Position numbers and translations under genes: made by a program
Shown: positions 32,803 through 58,285 of the stretch, piece by piece
Numbering within the stretch: position 1 is the stretch's first letter
Layout: each line of letters begins with the position of its first letter
Notes under the pieces: generated by a model
Told to the model about the DNA's origin: nothing
The model's database searches: none
Seen by the model: only the letters and a program-made list of their open reading frames with translations
Source of the DNA: Lutimonas halocynthiae
GTDB taxonomy: Bacteria > Bacteroidota > Bacteroidia > Flavobacteriales > Flavobacteriaceae
NCBI RefSeq assembly: GCF_030409835.1
Contig: NZ_JAUFQO010000016.1
Span: forward strand, 372,001 to 436,000
DNA: 64,000 nt
Reading direction: 5' to 3'

Positions 32803-32889
32803 CAAAAGTTTCAGAAAGGAAGTTATGGATTAAATAAATATACCTTGGGCAGGGTATGGTTTCACATATTCTATTTAACATAATATTAA

Positions 32890-33004
32890 TTATAGAACAT
32901 TTGTAGTAATTCTCGTATAGCCGTATTTACGGCTATTTAATATAAAATCAGTTCTGTCTCCTTTAGGAACAGAACGGCACCGATTTTATGTTAAAGGGAA
33001 TTAC
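32890..33004 (+). repeat. Structured repeat unit 1 (5'-half alpha, 3'-half A)
   Basis: The first of four related units. It opens with TATAGAACATTTGTAG, then an outer stem GTAATTCTC (32906-32914) with GGGAATTAC (32996-33004). Inside are hairpin 1 ATAGCCG/CGGCTAT (32917-32936) and hairpin 2 ATAAAATC/GATTTTAT enclosing GTTCTGT/ACAGAAC (32942-32989). Together they form a three-way junction. Its first 48 bases (from 32891) are identical to unit 4 and bases 32932-32997 are identical to unit 3. There is no reading frame. It may be a structured RNA or a hairpin DNA element. Confidence 0.7.
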
Positions 33005-33040
33005 GGGATTGAATCACTTTATAAACTTTCTAGATCAAAA

Positions 33041-33164
33041 TTCTTATAGAACATTTATAGTGTTTACCGTATAGCGCTTTTTAGCGCTATTTTACATACG
33101 GCATAAAAAGGAAAGATTGAGAATCTTTACTTTTTTGAGCGAGCTGATGCGGCTGGCAAACATT
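33041..33164 (+). repeat. Structured repeat unit 2 (5'-half beta, 3'-half B)
   Basis: This unit shares TATAGAACATTT with the others. Hairpin 1 is ATAGCGCT-TTTT-AGCGCTAT (33071-33090), extended by CCGT/ACGG. The 3' half is unlike unit 1: AAAAAGGAAAGATT-GAG-AATCTTTACTTTTT, a 14-bp hairpin with one mismatch, then GAGCGAGCTGATGCGGCTGG. Bases 33096-33164 (69 bases) are identical to unit 4. GTGTTTACC near the start can pair with GGCAAACAT at the end with one mismatch. Confidence 0.7.
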
Positions 33165-33210
33165 TCTAATTTTTTTTTGAGTTGATTGATCTGTTTTCAG
33201 TTATACTAAA

Positions 33211-33330
33211 TTCCTTATAGAACATTTATAGTATTTACCGTATAGCGGCTGAAAGACGCTATTTAATATAAAATCAGTTCTGTCTCCTTTAGGAACAGAA
33301 CGGCACCGATTTTATGTTAAAGGTAAATAC
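33211..33330 (+). repeat. Structured repeat unit 3 (5'-half beta-like, 3'-half A)
   Basis: The outer stem is GTATTTACC (33231-33239) with GGTAAATAC (33322-33330), a 9-bp perfect pairing that differs from unit 1 on both strands. Hairpin 1 is ATAGCG/CGCTAT with a nine-base loop (33242-33262), again changed on both sides. The 3' half (33258-33323) is identical to unit 1 over 66 bases. Start-to-start distances between units are 154, 171 and 154 bases. Confidence 0.7.
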
Positions 33331-33364
33331 GGATTCCTATCCTCAATTCGAATCCGAACAACAA

Positions 33365-33489
33365 TTCCTTATAGAACATTTGTAGTAATTCTCGTATAGC
33401 CGTATTTACGGCTATTTTATATACGGCATAAAAAGGAAAGATTGAGAATCTTTACTTTTTTGAGCGAGCTGATGCGGCTGGCAAACATT
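33365..33489 (+). repeat. Structured repeat unit 4 (5'-half alpha, 3'-half B)
   Basis: The first 48 bases of the motif (33370-33417) are identical to unit 1 and the last 69 (33421-33489) identical to unit 2, so this unit is a chimera of the two types. Hairpin 1 is ATAGCCG/CGGCTAT. Its GTAATTCTC cannot pair with its own 3' end, unlike in unit 1. Confidence 0.7.
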
Positions 33490-33529
33490 GCTCGTTTTCC
33501 AAAAGCAATCTTTGATATTCTATTTTTAT

Positions 33530-33681
33530 CTTTTGTCTTGAAACAAAAGAAACAAAAGTTCAAGGCTGCAATTGAACTAACAGCCCTTACTTTATAAATA
33601 CCGAGTGCGGTTGGGTGATTTCCTTGAGCATCTCTTCGGAACTACCCAATCTTACTAAGTATTTATTTTGAAAGTGCAGCC
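33530..33681 (+). other. Hairpin and long imperfect stem-loop downstream of the repeat array
   Basis: CTTTTGT/ACAAAAG (33530-33549) is a simple hairpin. It is followed by a long nested structure: GGCTGCA (33564-33570) with TGCAGCC (33675-33681), ATAAATAC with GTATTTAT (33594-33601/33659-33666), TTGGGT with ACCCAA (33611-33616/33644-33649) and TTCC with GGAA (33620-33623/33638-33641). No reading frame is present. I recall similar intergenic sequences in other Flavobacteriaceae, but that is memory, not a search. The remaining 33690-34040 shows nothing I can name. Confidence 0.5.
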
Positions 33682-34042
33682 ATTTCAATTGAGGCCGGGT
33701 TTAGATTCATATCATATTAGTTGTATAGTATCTGATACATTGTATTCTACGTAAGATTAGATCTCTTAATTTATTGGGATTTAGTAATTGTCGTGAAACT
33801 CCCGTATTTGAATAAATATACAGGAAATAAAATTCTGCGCGATTCTCATAGATAGTTGGATTAGATAAAATTAGAGACAGCTCCATTTGTCCTGTGGCAT
33901 GGTTAAATTGATCATTAAGATAATTTCTAATCGTTCATCGTGAAGAGCTTTGAGTCACATAAATTGTAATATTGGTCATTATTAATAGTGCTCACTTATT
34001 CTCACCTTGAGATTAATTCATAGTTAAACTTATCTAAAAAAG

Positions 34043-34072
34043 AATGAACATTCATTTTTATTTGTATCTTTG
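34043..34072 (+). promoter_or_regulatory. TetR operator and -7 promoter element
   Basis: AATGAA-CA-TTCATT (34043-34056) is a perfect 6-base inverted repeat of the kind bound by TetR dimers. It covers the region where a -33 element would lie, upstream of the exact -7 box TATCTTTG (34065-34072), 19 bases before the TetR start. Autorepression of the operon is inferred. Confidence 0.55.
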
Positions 34073-34091
34073 TACTCTAGATTAAGATCAC

Positions 34092-34670
34092 ATGGCTAAA
34101 CTTCAAAAGAGCATAGACAAGAGAAACGCACTTATAAAAGCAACCATTGAATTGGTGAATAACAATGGTTTTCATGCAGCTGCCATGAGTAAAATTGCCA
34201 AAATGGCAAACGTCTCTCCTGCTACCATCTACTTATATTTTGAGAATAAGCAAGACTTGGTAAATCAAACTTATATCGAAGTCAAGGAAAAGTATACGCA
34301 GTACGCTTTTGAAACATATGATGAAAATATGGCTGTTGAAGCCGGTTTTCAAATCATTTGGAATCGAATTGCAGAATTCAAACTCAAGGAATCTGAAAAT
34401 GCATTCTTTCTAGCCCAATGTGATAATACACCTATGATTGATGAACAAAGTAGACAAGAAGGTATTAGACATCTTCAACCCCTACTCGACCTTTGGACGC
34501 GTGGTAAAAAGGAAGGTATCATAAAACCATATGCAAATTACATCTTATATGCTTATTCAATAAATCCTTTGTCATTTTTGATGATGGCGCAGAAACAGGA
34601 GGCATTTCAATTAAATCAAGACCATCTTGAAGATGCATTTCAGGCAGCCTGGAACAGTATAAAAAAATAA
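34092..34670 (+). CDS. TetR/AcrR family transcriptional regulator
   Basis: 192 residues. The N-terminal helix-turn-helix (ALIKATIELVNNNGFHAAAMSKIAKMANVSPATIYLYFENKQDLVNQTY, about 13-60) is the TetR DNA-binding domain. The rest is an all-helical ligand-binding domain. It is the first gene of a five-gene plus-strand cluster of oxidoreductases and probably represses that cluster until an electrophile or aldehyde is sensed. A matching inverted repeat overlaps the promoter. Confidence 0.93.
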   Translation: MAKLQKSIDKRNALIKATIELVNNNGFHAAAMSKIAKMANVSPATIYLYFENKQDLVNQTYIEVKEKYTQYAFETYDENMAVEAGFQIIWNRIAEFKLKESENAFFLAQCDNTPMIDEQSRQEGIRHLQPLLDLWTRGKKEGIIKPYANYILYAYSINPLSFLMMAQKQEAFQLNQDHLEDAFQAAWNSIKK

Positions 34671-34707
34671 AATAAGCTAAAAAGAAAGGATCATTAAACA
34701 ATCAAAA

Positions 34708-35376
34708 ATGAAAAAAACAGCCATAATATTAGGAGCCACAGGCTTAACAGGTTCAATTCTTTTAGAAAAGCTTATAAATGATGATCGCTACACAACGATC
34801 AAACTTTTTTCCAGAAAAGAATTAGGTGGGATGCCTTCGAAAGTGAATCAATATGTTGGCAATTTATTTGAATTAGAAAAATTTAAAGTCGATTTTACGG
34901 GAGATGAAGTGTATTGCTGTATTGGGACAACAGCTAAAAAAACACCAGACAAAGCGGTATATACAGCCATCGATTATGGAATACCAGTTGCAGCCGCTAA
35001 ACTTTCAAAAGAAAATGGAATACCTACATTTTTAGTTGTTTCAGCGTTAGGTTCTAATGCAAATAGCAGCATCTTTTACAACAAAACAAAAGGTGAAATG
35101 GAGCGTGATGTGCTTTCAGAAAAAATTCATAACACATTTATATTGCAACCATCAATTATTGAAGGTCAGCGAAATGAACAACGAATTGGGGAGAAAATTG
35201 GTTTGGCTGTTTTCAAATTGGTTCAACCTTTATTCTTCGGAAAATTAAAAAAATATAAAATTACTAAAGCGGAACATATTGCTCAGGCCATGGTAAATTT
35301 GGCAAATACACCTTCAAACAAACAAAGAATAGCTTCACATGACATAGAAGCATTAGCAATCAATACGAATCTATAA
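34708..35376 (+). CDS. NAD(P)H-binding SDR-like protein (atypical, HTATIP2/YwnB type)
   Basis: 222 residues with an N-terminal Rossmann motif GATGLTGSILLEKLI (residues 9-23), CCIGTTAKKTPDKAVY in the fourth strand region, and FLVVSALGSNANSSIFYNKTKGEMERDV holding the Tyr-x-x-x-Lys-like YNKTKGE. This matches the short atypical SDR group with NAD(P)H-binding but unknown substrates. It sits 37 bases after the TetR gene and 12 bases before the MDR reductase, so it is part of the same operon. Confidence 0.85.
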   Translation: MKKTAIILGATGLTGSILLEKLINDDRYTTIKLFSRKELGGMPSKVNQYVGNLFELEKFKVDFTGDEVYCCIGTTAKKTPDKAVYTAIDYGIPVAAAKLSKENGIPTFLVVSALGSNANSSIFYNKTKGEMERDVLSEKIHNTFILQPSIIEGQRNEQRIGEKIGLAVFKLVQPLFFGKLKKYKITKAEHIAQAMVNLANTPSNKQRIASHDIEALAINTNL

Positions 35377-35388
35377 AATAACATACCC

Positions 35389-36384
35389 ATGAACAAAGCA
35401 ATTTTATTAGAGAAAAGACCAGTTGGTTTACCTCAATTGTCCGATTTTAAATTTGTTTCAAATGAAATTGAAACGATAACAGAAGGAGAATTGTTATTAA
35501 AAACAACCTATGTTTCTGTGGACCCTTATTTGAGAGGAAGAATGAATGATGTCAAATCATATATACCGCCATTTGAATTGCATAAACCCATTTCATCTGG
35601 GATTATTGCTGAAGTAATTGATTCTAAAAACACTGCATTTAAAAAAGGTGATTTTGTATCCGGAATGTTAGAATGGAAAGAGTTTCAAAAATCTAATGGA
35701 GAAGGTTTGATAAAAGCAGATGCTTCGAAGGCACCAATGTCAACCTATTTAGGTGTTTTGGGATTAACTGGTTTAACTGCCTATTTAGGTTTGACCGAAA
35801 TAGGAAAACCGAAAAAAGGTGAAACAGTTGTAGTTTCTGGAGCGGCTGGAGCTGTGGGCAGTATCGTTGGCCAAATCGCTAAATTAAATGGATGTAAAGT
35901 TATTGGTATTGCAGGAAGTGATGAGAAAGTAGCCATGTTGAAATCTGATCTAGGATTTGATGAAGCTATTAATTACAATACAACTAAGAATATGGCAGCA
36001 GCCATTAAAAAGGTGGCCCCCGATGGTGTAGATATTTATTTTGACAATGTTGGAGGTCCAATTTCTGATGCTGTTTTATTAAACATTAATCAATTTGCAC
36101 GTTTTATTATTTGTGGTGCCATTTCTATATATAACAATACAGAATTACCAAAAAGCATTAGCGTTCAACCATTTTTAATAAGGAATAGTGCTTTGATGCA
36201 AGGTTTTATTGTTTTCAATTATGCTGAAAAATACCCGGAAGCCATCAAGCAGTTATCACAATGGCTGGCAGAAGGGAAATTAAGCTATACAGAAACCATT
36301 GTTGAAGGTTTTGATGCAATTCCTCAAGCATTTTTAGACCTTTTTGAGGGCAAGAACAAGGGTAAAATGCTCGTAAAAATTTAA
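35389..36384 (+). CDS. NADP-dependent MDR oxidoreductase (prostaglandin reductase/curcumin reductase-like)
   Basis: 331 residues of the zinc-free medium-chain dehydrogenase group. The N-terminal GroES-like domain has TTYVSVDPYLRGRMNDVKSY, the family signature. The Rossmann part has VVVSGAAGAVGSIVGQIAKLNG, with GCKVIGIAGSDEKVAML following. These enzymes reduce the double bond of alpha,beta-unsaturated aldehydes and ketones with NADPH. In this operon it would detoxify enals beside the YqhD-like alcohol dehydrogenase. Confidence 0.92.
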   Translation: MNKAILLEKRPVGLPQLSDFKFVSNEIETITEGELLLKTTYVSVDPYLRGRMNDVKSYIPPFELHKPISSGIIAEVIDSKNTAFKKGDFVSGMLEWKEFQKSNGEGLIKADASKAPMSTYLGVLGLTGLTAYLGLTEIGKPKKGETVVVSGAAGAVGSIVGQIAKLNGCKVIGIAGSDEKVAMLKSDLGFDEAINYNTTKNMAAAIKKVAPDGVDIYFDNVGGPISDAVLLNINQFARFIICGAISIYNNTELPKSISVQPFLIRNSALMQGFIVFNYAEKYPEAIKQLSQWLAEGKLSYTETIVEGFDAIPQAFLDLFEGKNKGKMLVKI

Positions 36385-36407
36385 AGAACACATTAAAAAT
36401 CAATATT

Positions 36408-37568
36408 ATGAATAATTTCGATTTTCAAAATCCAACAAAAATATTGTTTGGTAAAGGGCAAATAGAAAAACTCAGCAATGAAATTCCAGAAGGCGCAAAA
36501 GTGTTATTGCTTTTTGGAGGCGGGAGTATTAAAAAAAATGGCATCTATGAACAAGTTTCAAAAGCACTCTCAAATTTTGATGTTATAGAATTTGGAGGAA
36601 TACCAGCTAATCCAGAATATGAGGTTTTGATGGAGGCTTTAGATATTATTAAAGCTGAAAAAATTACATTTTTATTAGCTGTAGGTGGTGGATCTGTAAT
36701 TGATGGAGCAAAATTTTTATCAGCAGCAGCCTTATATGATGGTGATGAGCCTTGGGATATTTTGACCAAAAATAAACGCACCATCAAAGGAATGCCTTTT
36801 GGTACCGTACTTACATTACCTGCAACAGGTTCAGAAATGAATTCGGGTGCAGTGATCACTAGAAAAGAAACCAAAGAGAAATTTGGTATGGGTGGTCCTG
36901 GTTTATTCCCGCAGTTCTCAATTCTAGACCCTGAAGTTGTAAAGTCGATTCCACAGCGTCAATTAGCAAATGGTTTGGCAGATTCATTTACACACGTTTT
37001 AGAACAATATATGACCTATTCTGTGGAAGCAACATTACAAGATCGTTTTGCTGAAAGCATATTGCAAACCATTATTGAAGTTGCTCCGGCTATCATAAAA
37101 GATCCTTCAGACTATAAAGCGGCTTCCAATTTTATGTGGAGTTGTACGATGGCCTTAAACGGATTGATTCAAAAAGGCGTGCCCTCAGATTGGGCTGTTC
37201 ATGCAATGGGGCACGAATTAACCGCATTATTTGGTATCGATCATGCACGGACCTTAGCCGTAATCACACCAAGCCATTATAAGTATAACTTTGAAGCTAA
37301 AAAAGAAAAATTAGCGCAATATGCTGAGCGTGTCTGGAATATTACTGAAGGAAGTACAGACGATAAAGCCTACGCTGCGATTGAAAAAACAACTGAATTT
37401 TTCCATTCTCTAGGAATAGAAACAAAACTATCTGATTATACCAAGGAATATGAAGGAACTGCAGAAGAAATTGCAAAACGTTTTACAGACCGTGGTTGGT
37501 TAGGATTAGGTGAACATCAATCGTTATCACCAGATAAGGTTGAAAAAATTGTAAAAATGGCTTATTAA
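36408..37568 (+). CDS. Iron-containing alcohol dehydrogenase, YqhD/butanol dehydrogenase type
   Basis: 386 residues. MNNFDFQNPTKILFGKGQIE and LLAVGGGSVIDGAKFLSAAA (GGGS nucleotide loop) define group III dehydrogenases. Metal-binding residues fall in LADSFTHVLEQYMTY, VHAMGHELTALFGIDHARTLA (two His) and near the middle Asp. It should reduce aldehydes with NADPH using Fe or Zn, as E. coli YqhD does for short aldehydes and lipid-peroxidation products. It is the fourth gene of the TetR-controlled operon. Confidence 0.93.
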   Translation: MNNFDFQNPTKILFGKGQIEKLSNEIPEGAKVLLLFGGGSIKKNGIYEQVSKALSNFDVIEFGGIPANPEYEVLMEALDIIKAEKITFLLAVGGGSVIDGAKFLSAAALYDGDEPWDILTKNKRTIKGMPFGTVLTLPATGSEMNSGAVITRKETKEKFGMGGPGLFPQFSILDPEVVKSIPQRQLANGLADSFTHVLEQYMTYSVEATLQDRFAESILQTIIEVAPAIIKDPSDYKAASNFMWSCTMALNGLIQKGVPSDWAVHAMGHELTALFGIDHARTLAVITPSHYKYNFEAKKEKLAQYAERVWNITEGSTDDKAYAAIEKTTEFFHSLGIETKLSDYTKEYEGTAEEIAKRFTDRGWLGLGEHQSLSPDKVEKIVKMAY

Positions 37569-37624
37569 TATTTAACATAATATCTTATAAATCATTAGGA
37601 TTAGAGGTTGCTATGATAAATAAC

Positions 37625-58163: not shown

Positions 58164-58285
58164 CAATTTTTTTTAATTATGGCGGCAAATATACTTAATT
58201 GTATTTGTTGTTAATTAAAATTTGCGTTAAAATAAACACAAGATTATTTATAGTCTCCAAGTGATATCTCTTACATTAGCTATTC

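Follow-up and report, generated by a model that had tools for sequence, protein, structure and literature searches.

A rearranged array of folded repeats beside dif resembles the attachment sites of Xer-exploiting mobile elements in Bacteroidota

Introduction

Integron attC sites are folded single-strand recombination sites of conserved structure and variable sequence, and integron cassettes form ordered, one-sided arrays at one chromosomal site. Gene movement at dif, where the copies of a chromosome become separated and on which the host recombinases XerC and XerD act, is already described in the literature for integrative mobile elements exploiting Xer (IMEX), for the dif modules of Acinetobacter and for single-stranded DNA (ssDNA) phages. 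In CTXphi, attP1 (centre of 12 bp) and attP2 (centre of 5–7 bp) lie inverted to one another and 90 bp apart; they pair in single-stranded DNA, and XerC recombines them with dif (PMC4246890; this and the following accounts are cited from parts of their texts). The pdif and chromosomal dif modules of Acinetobacter are gene modules flanked by Xer sites and are thought to be moved by the host XerCD (PMC12907356, PMC11705084). LME-1, a mobile element of Legionella, carries a mimic of dif and uses a host recombinase to integrate there (PMC9765430). In Bacteroidota, PhiCjT23-like ssDNA prophages of 6.0–8.4 kb are integrated at dif (PMC9719478), as are BMV microvirus proviruses, among which BMVs 4–6 bear an additional dif-like sequence near one end (PMC3091885).

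Here we analyse a four-unit repeat array in a 64,000-nucleotide stretch of the Lutimonas halocynthiae chromosome (hereafter referred to as the window, whose numbering we use; all features are on the forward strand). Our preferred interpretation of the array is a rearranged set of folded sites at which Xer-exploiting elements attach, lying at the place where such elements insert. In the open-licence literature, searched through titles and abstract openings, we found no account of these hairpins or of defence cassettes at dif in Bacteroidota.

Results

The array abuts a predicted dif site

An earlier note on this DNA, made from the letters alone, had described four tandem units at 32890–33489. 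This interval begins 17 bases into what is predicted to be the dif site of the chromosome (32873–32900), which the array abuts and which is its most informative part. The site is composed of the XerD arm ATTTAACATAA (32873–32883), the centre TATTAA (32884–32889) and the XerC arm TTATAGAACAT (32890–32900), a division that we assume by analogy with E. coli dif. The dif pattern has a single match in the 4.0-Mb genome at up to three mismatches, and that match is exact; the reversed pattern, serving as control, gave one forward and one reverse match at up to three mismatches and none at two. GC skew changes sign at the site, being positive in eight of nine sampled blocks to the left and negative in 12 of 13 to the right, with one block spanning dif. 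The pattern is present in at least 119 stretches of genome contigs, and the 80 titles listed among these comprise one Pseudoalteromonas, one unnamed bacterium and otherwise Bacteroidota. The XerD of the L. halocynthiae genome scores above the NCBIfam cut-off, and its XerC-like protein reaches 294.7 bits against the 335 required; all six matches to the tyrosine recombinase family PF00589 in this genome lie on contigs other than that of dif. Since dif forms the left edge of the array, with the XerD arm on the left and the XerC arm on the right, every unit opens with the XerC half-site of dif, TTATAGAAC.

Two complete and two partial units

The array itself was confirmed: TATAGAACATTT occurs at 32891, 33045, 33216 and 33370 (spacings of 154, 171 and 154), and all four repeats of 32890–33500 open with TTATAGAACATTT. 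The stretch was also rightly called gene-free, as 32806–34091 (1.3 kb) holds no open reading frame (ORF) of 60 or more amino acids, and the inner hairpins and outer stems carry the letters reported for them, the outer stem of unit 1 including one G–T pair. What did not stand is the equality of the four units. Units 1 and 3 are complete, whereas units 2 and 4 share only their left half and have another right half.

Unit 1 (32890–33043) is a three-way junction that starts with the XerC half-site. Its outer stem P1 is formed by a 5′ arm at 32906–32914 and a 3′ arm at 32996–33004, both placed by folding and the helix also by covariation; P1 encloses the hairpin P2 (32917–32936; fold and covariation) and the stem P3 (32937–32995), described below. 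Unit 3 (33215–33368) has the same organization, with P1 at 33231–33239 and 33322–33330, P2 at 33242–33262 and P3 at 33263–33321. Both match the covariance model R1 (see below), at 106.4 bits for unit 1 and 100.5 bits for unit 3, each being one of its training sequences. The left half of units 2 and 4 consists of the XerC half-site, the 5′ arm of P1 and P2. In unit 2 (33044–33214; weak R1 match, E 0.0052), P2 lies at 33071–33090 and is followed by a divergent right half without P3; in unit 4 (33369–33500, its right end being undefined; weak R1 match, E 0.0011), P2 lies at 33396–33415 and the right half is like that of unit 2.

The halves form a checkerboard. Left halves are identical between units 1 and 4 (47/47) and similar between units 2 and 3 (40/48), whereas right halves match between units 1 and 3 (67/70) and between units 2 and 4 (78/84). 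Exchange within the array is the one account of this pattern that we offer. Inversion was considered as a possible source of units 2 and 4: their right half resembles a region at cassette ends in other genomes (genomes, contigs and loci are given by our G, C and L numbers), in reverse sense in L014 but forward in G388.

The sequence preceding TTATAGAAC changes among the four units, while TTATAGAAC itself is common to all. At the inter-unit junctions it is preceded by AATTCCT or AATTCT, and the XerD-like arm found at the junctions of other genomes is absent there; neither the inverted arm attP2 nor a junction with a 9-nt centre (both described below) was found in the 20 kb beside dif in this genome. 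The Xer-like parts of the window array are P3, the XerC half-sites and a degenerate site at 37571, and the pair of outer arms of the CTXphi type was not found. Because its junctions have no XerD-like arm and attP2 is missing, competence cannot be claimed for the window array. Two or three tandem units with a spacing of about 100–210 bp also lie beside dif in L060 (Olleya), L295 (G203), L207 and L217 (G058) and L267 (G023), so arrays without cargo are not peculiar to the window.

To the right of the array lies a short conserved box (33526–33570), a hairpin with a CTTGA loop followed by TCAAGGC, whose membership of the element is uncertain. Several loci carry it with 97.8% identity over 45 bp; in other genera it stands in the leaders of dif cassettes, mostly 409–717 bp past dif or a junction and in three cases at 969–1547. 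The box core has 12 copies in the L. halocynthiae genome at up to three mismatches, 11 of them besides that of the window; a dispersed intergenic repeat with a CTTGA-loop hairpin is seen at 33518–33690 and elsewhere in this genome (G000), on C16 at 799–905 kb, on C12 and on C1. A reading of the box as a rolling-circle origin was rejected because the 11 further copies appear, by eye, to be pieces of a longer dispersed repeat.

Folding is conserved and fits DNA better than RNA

Units 1 and 3 fold into the junction of P1, P2 and a long P3 with an unequal internal bulge. Against dinucleotide shuffles, and with RNA parameters, the fold of unit 1 has a z-score of −5.6 and that of unit 3 of −5.2 (0/200 shuffles as good for either); unit 2 reaches −3.6 (1/200) and unit 4 −2.9 (0/200). 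DNA folding parameters yield nearly the same fold for the complete units.

Four tandem copies alone are insufficient evidence of selection on pairing, and an alignment of 31 units, of which two are from the window, is much better. Paired positions in these homologues keep pairing, with 87.2% of cells paired, a share biased towards structure because the structure was set by inspecting the same alignment. Double changes occur in 23 of 34 pairs, and double-change cells number 160, compared with 52.5 in shuffles. The covariation score is 0.385 versus 0.139 in shuffles, none of 500 shuffles reaching the former value, and sliding the partners by one to three columns, as a control, lowered it to 0.119 or less. 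The proposal that selection has kept this fold through compensatory changes is thus supported.

The molecule that folds was proposed to be RNA, with folded single-stranded DNA named in brackets. A structured RNA family (a small RNA or a cis element) that sits beside dif by chance would be in keeping with the strong covariation, with the stable RNA folds and with the 21 G–T versus 3 A–C cells of P3, the excess expected if one strand folds as RNA. However, P1 and P2 together show no such excess (10 G–T versus 14 A–C cells), and the excess in P3 falls partly in XerD-arm columns, where protein binding could account for it. G–T makes up 31 of 914 standard pairs in the units (3.4%) compared with 30 of 301 (10%) in 14 distinct tRNAs of the loci, a weak yardstick given that the tRNAs are higher in G+C and that ARAGORN brackets only standard pairs, which restricts the comparison to this share. 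Rfam returned only two tRNAs over the window at gathering cut-offs, and with relaxed thresholds the best matches at the array had E values of 0.2 to 10, far under the cut-offs, so that the absence of a named family holds for Rfam. An RNA family would also leave unexplained why the unit starts are XerC half-sites and why position and orientation are bound to dif across genera (see below). We consider this reading improbable. The tie to dif and its XerC half-site, the dif-mimic stem and the lack of a G–T excess in P1 and P2 leave it unsupported, and the bracketed alternative fits better: it is the link to dif that makes folded DNA preferable, P3 on its own being ambiguous.

P3 is a predicted folded mimic of dif

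The 5′ strand of P3 reads as a XerD-like arm, six bases and a XerC-like arm; its 3′ strand, reversed, again gives XerD- and XerC-like arms, with nine bases between them. P3 is thus, by sequence and predicted fold, a folded mimic of dif with an unequal centre, much like the folded single-stranded attP of CTXphi. The centres hold throughout the family, at 6 nt in 30 and 9 nt in 27 of the 31 units. When the first half-site is left out, the dif consensus scores best at P3 in all 31 units, with a mean of 14.6/18 versus 10.7 in shuffles, and 23 units beat all 100 of their own shuffles. Units 1 and 3 of the window are weak in this respect, both scoring 13/18, with 2/100 and 7/100 shuffles as high. 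P3 is intact across unit boundaries and is therefore not the cut site in the insertions that we see.

Relatives lie on one side of dif

Homologues exist beyond this locus. In blastn searches the array matched 16 of 100 relatives, and R1, built from the 31 units, matched 22 of 100 relatives and 10 of 296 genomes of the phylum (L. halocynthiae being counted each time). These overlapping sets gave 40 R1 matches in 30 genomes. The filters used for them were stricter, at the cost of weak matches such as that of G046, which was recovered in a locus-level search. Aquimarina, Olleya, Maribacter and Polaribacter are among the named loci with matches. A blastn search set for distant similarity gave no match in plasmid and phage collections.

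We sought dif at up to two mismatches in 32 genomes and found it in 31. For 36 of the 40 R1 matches, a dif of the same orientation is present on the contig, and the match lies on its XerC side at a distance of 19 bp to 15 kb; 22 of them directly adjoin dif and 10 sit 4 to 15 kb away. Of the other four, that of G207 is on the opposite strand over its own hairpin, that of G019 is in a genome without a dif match, that of G029 has its dif on another contig and that of G048:C1 is located elsewhere. In the 20-kb flanks of dif from 18 genomes, all selected because R1 (blastn in the case of G046) had a match in them, R1 matched on the XerC side in 18/18 and on the XerD side in 0/18. The model covers the XerC half-site of dif and leaves out its XerD arm, and hence this one-sided location is not built into it.

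Such placement bears on a palindromic repeat of the MITE or REP type, moved by a transposase and preferring dif by accident. The inverted dif-like arms do resemble terminal inverted repeats, several copies stand in tandem, and the R1 match of G048:C1, like two weaker relatives, is not at dif. Yet all four DNA matches to the array in the L. halocynthiae genome fall in this one cluster, copies occupy a single side of dif in a single orientation, and no target duplication was noticed in an unsystematic inspection. We regard such a repeat as very improbable; the MITE interpretation of the inverted repeat was dropped after one of its arms turned out to be dif.

Presence and absence bear on the idea that the units are an accessory element of the host, regulating recombination of dif at the terminus. 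Such an element would adjoin dif in many genera, as the units do, and its dif mimicry could titrate or position XerC and XerD. However, R1 finds nothing at E 0.1 in 89 of 119 dif loci (training loci account for 23 of the other 30), and 10 of the 36 placed copies sit 4 to 15 kb from dif. Within the same genus, dif is bare in G001 and G013, the unit is truncated in G011 and ends after P2 in G002, and G007, G016, G018, G020 and G021 carry a unit. A host function is therefore hardly credible. Among the genomes compared, no occupied and empty dif with the same flanks formed a pair.

Two observations on related loci are recorded here. About 300 bp downstream of the unit of G002 that ends after P2 lies an ORF that resembles, by eye, an IS110-type transposase (L008:1893–2870), suggestive of insertion of such an element into the hairpin. 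Three genera have, at places other than dif, another type of folded dif-like hairpin, TATTTTACATAATAnCAGTTATAG, whose loop is longer (R1 E 0.0001 to 0.03): L298:7522–7672 (G048:C1), L299:4111–4267 (G047:C1) and L300:5316–5473 (G292:C1), with, by eye, an HsdM-like ORF near one and an AAA-like ORF near another.

Units open gene cassettes in some relatives

The region that follows dif in some other genomes opens with an inverted dif-like arm whose centre measures 7 nt (attP2); a third arm (attP3) comes about 70–190 bases further on, and then genes. The cassette ends at a junction, ACATAA-CGCAGAACA-TTATAG, in which a XerD-like arm and a 9-nt centre meet the next XerC half-site. Junctions elsewhere were defined as a XerD-like arm, 9 nt and TTAT(A/G), a pattern set by this analysis itself; in 19 genomes, 11 such junctions were found on the XerC side, in six genomes and in a single orientation, and none on the XerD side. 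Among 106 dif loci with 600 bp on the XerC side, attP2 occurs in eight, attP3 in seven and the junction in five (none on the XerD side), and the full layout is thus that of a minority. Where cargo is present, successive units or junctions are 4 to 13 kb apart, and the first cassette of G388 measures 12.7 kb.

The junction arm and attP2 occur together in G026, G045, G046, G185 and G021. In DNA folding, dif pairs with attP2 in four of four stretches, and of five junction stretches that of G026 alone has its outer arms paired around P1–P3. The first cassettes of G026, G045 and G046 have only a short loop in place of P1–P3, which shows that P1–P3 is not essential to the outer arms.

The cargo includes defence systems. 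Per-protein scans of selected proteins (PADLOC, n = 20; Pfam, n = 10) identified type I restriction–modification (G026), Gabija (G185), a CBASS cyclase and phospholipase (G021) and PDC-S60 (G023) by PADLOC, and a DncV-like cyclase (G040), an RND pump (G045) and a C39 exporter (G388) by Pfam. In G046, PADLOC also identified DRT3, which lies past the second unit in a part where we saw no closing junction. Other cargo genes are unrelated to defence, such as those for an amidohydrolase and a nitroreductase (G046). At E 1e-30, 113 PADLOC models match in 66 cassette ORFs as against four in 64 XerD-side ORFs from eight of the nine cassette genomes, a contrast that is only rough because the models are redundant and 25 of them are listed. 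The nine genomes are a non-random set, chosen because a second unit or a junction could be recognised (in G039 only with a loose pattern), and G319, G032, G056 and G035 fall outside the cargo scan. PF00589 tyrosine recombinases are absent from the cassette coordinates of all nine. Among the 25 PHROGs listed of 40 in cassette regions there is no phage structural family, and we noticed no replication or transfer gene in these 25 families or in the 25 listed of 44 in a second scan. Elsewhere, on contigs G185:C15 and G040:C26, we observed tyrosine recombinase genes in pairs (products of about 320 and 300 amino acids), each pair present twice, about 7 kb apart. In relatives, then, the hairpins often stand at the head of gene cassettes, several of them anti-phage defences, that appear to enter the chromosome through the host XerC and XerD.

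The same cassettes might be satellites of a dif-integrating ssDNA phage, in which P1–P3 would be the signal by which the helper replicates or packages them, and the cargo would be carried along. Bacteroidota ssDNA phages do integrate at dif (PMC9719478, PMC3091885), and the nine cassette regions without a tyrosine recombinase would suit a satellite. However, R1 has no match in FLiP at E 1 or in 25 dif-bearing viral loci at E 0.1, and three exact element patterns are absent from viral contigs. The first cassette of G388 exceeds both FLiP (9.2 kb) and the PhiCjT23-like prophages, for which the part of the account used gives 6.0–8.4 kb (PMC9719478), and the box once taken for a replication origin is a dispersed repeat. 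The box pattern has two matches in viral contigs, one of which was inspected and showed no link, and neither comes with an R1 match. We consider satellites unlikely. Several of the viral contigs L143–L167 have, by eye, a dif match and then a motif like AAGTCCAATACTAGACGGTATCGGAC after the XerC arm; these are perhaps dif-integrated phages of other hosts.

A candidate cassette in the window

A loose search of both strands of the window for a XerD arm, 4–12 nt and a XerC arm returned dif, a site at 37571–37596 and a weak one at 58227. The site at 37571–37596, an uncertain candidate for a second Xer site, is composed of the exact XerD arm ATTTAACATAA, a 4-nt centre (unlike the 9-nt centre of other junctions) and a XerC-like arm TTATAAATCAT, in the orientation of dif. 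It is located 4.7 kb from dif on the XerC side, directly after the last of four genes (34092–37568) that encode TetR-like, NAD-binding, curcumin-reductase-like and alcohol-dehydrogenase-like proteins. These four genes may form a cassette of which the site is the decayed end.

Discussion

We propose, with a probability of roughly two in three, that the units serve as attachment sites for mobile elements, which use the host XerC and XerD to enter the chromosome at dif. The proposal is based on the position and orientation of the units, their common half-site, their fold and covariation, the cargo of relatives and the nine cassette regions without a tyrosine recombinase. As in IMEX, the elements are located at the host dif (36/40 R1 matches, and dif with its skew in the window), and the PF00589 search of the cassettes of nine genomes revealed no recombinase of their own.

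A typical element would begin with the XerC half-site, followed by a loop domain (often P1–P2–P3, in which P3 mimics dif in a compact folded form) and by a dif-like arm in inverted orientation; cargo would come next, and then a XerD-like arm and a 9-nt centre abutting the next XerC half-site. We infer a single-stranded intermediate, a choice of the folded substrate and strand exchange by XerC. In the single-stranded state the inverted arms would pair into a dif-like stem with an unequal centre, and XerC would swap one strand of this stem with double-stranded dif, as reported for CTXphi. Each insertion would rebuild dif on the XerD side and displace older elements towards the XerC side, which would produce one-sided arrays of one orientation. 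In L. halocynthiae, the outcome would be four hairpin units without recognised junction arms between them, and 37571 may mark the end of one four-gene cassette.

A wider interpretation, which we put forward tentatively as a possibility, is that Bacteroidota possess an integron-like platform without an integron integrase, in which dif is the insertion point, XerC/XerD the recombinase and the covarying hairpin the mobile site. If so, ordered arrays of anti-phage defence and other cassettes would gather at the replication terminus, and P1–P3 units could move or persist free of cargo, the window being an example. Insertion at dif in this way would account for defence systems reaching one fixed, common site of Bacteroidota chromosomes without integrases, and reading the DNA between dif hairpins would be a simple route to new defence genes. 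It would also add, beside integrons and CTXphi, a further natural folded single-strand substrate of tyrosine recombinases, with natural variants numerous enough to derive recognition rules.

Among known systems, integron attC cassettes share with the elements described here a folded single-strand site of variable sequence and ordered, one-sided arrays. They differ in that here no integron integrase lies beside the array (cassette regions have no tyrosine recombinase, and the PF00589 matches of L. halocynthiae are on other contigs), in that arms and boundary are of the dif/Xer type and in that the cassettes are multi-gene and 4 to 13 kb long. The Acinetobacter dif modules likewise place genes between Xer sites, with host XerCD thought responsible; those carry resistance cargo, and the parts of the two accounts cited do not mention a folded, covarying domain (PMC12907356, PMC11705084). 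LME-1 is similar in its dif mimic and in its integration at dif by a host recombinase, but it uses a single-recombinase XerL host system, and the part of the account cited does not mention a folded site (PMC9765430). The PhiCjT23-like prophages and BMV proviruses use dif within the same phylum, but have capsid and replication genes (PMC9719478, PMC3091885), and R1 is without a match in FLiP or in dif-bearing viral contigs. To the extent of the account cited, CTXphi attP(+) offers two inverted dif-like arms with unequal centres, a XerC half-site at the boundary and a location beside dif, as seen here, and its arms are able to pair in single-stranded DNA, as those described here may be (PMC4246890). 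The centres here are of 9 nt and of 6 or 7 nt, instead of 12 and 5–7, and there is an additional three-way junction, whose P3 would be a second, compact dif mimic. In place of a filamentous phage genome, with no phage structural family noticed among the 25 PHROGs listed of 40, the cassettes carry restriction–modification, Gabija, CBASS, efflux and similar proteins, in Bacteroidota hosts.
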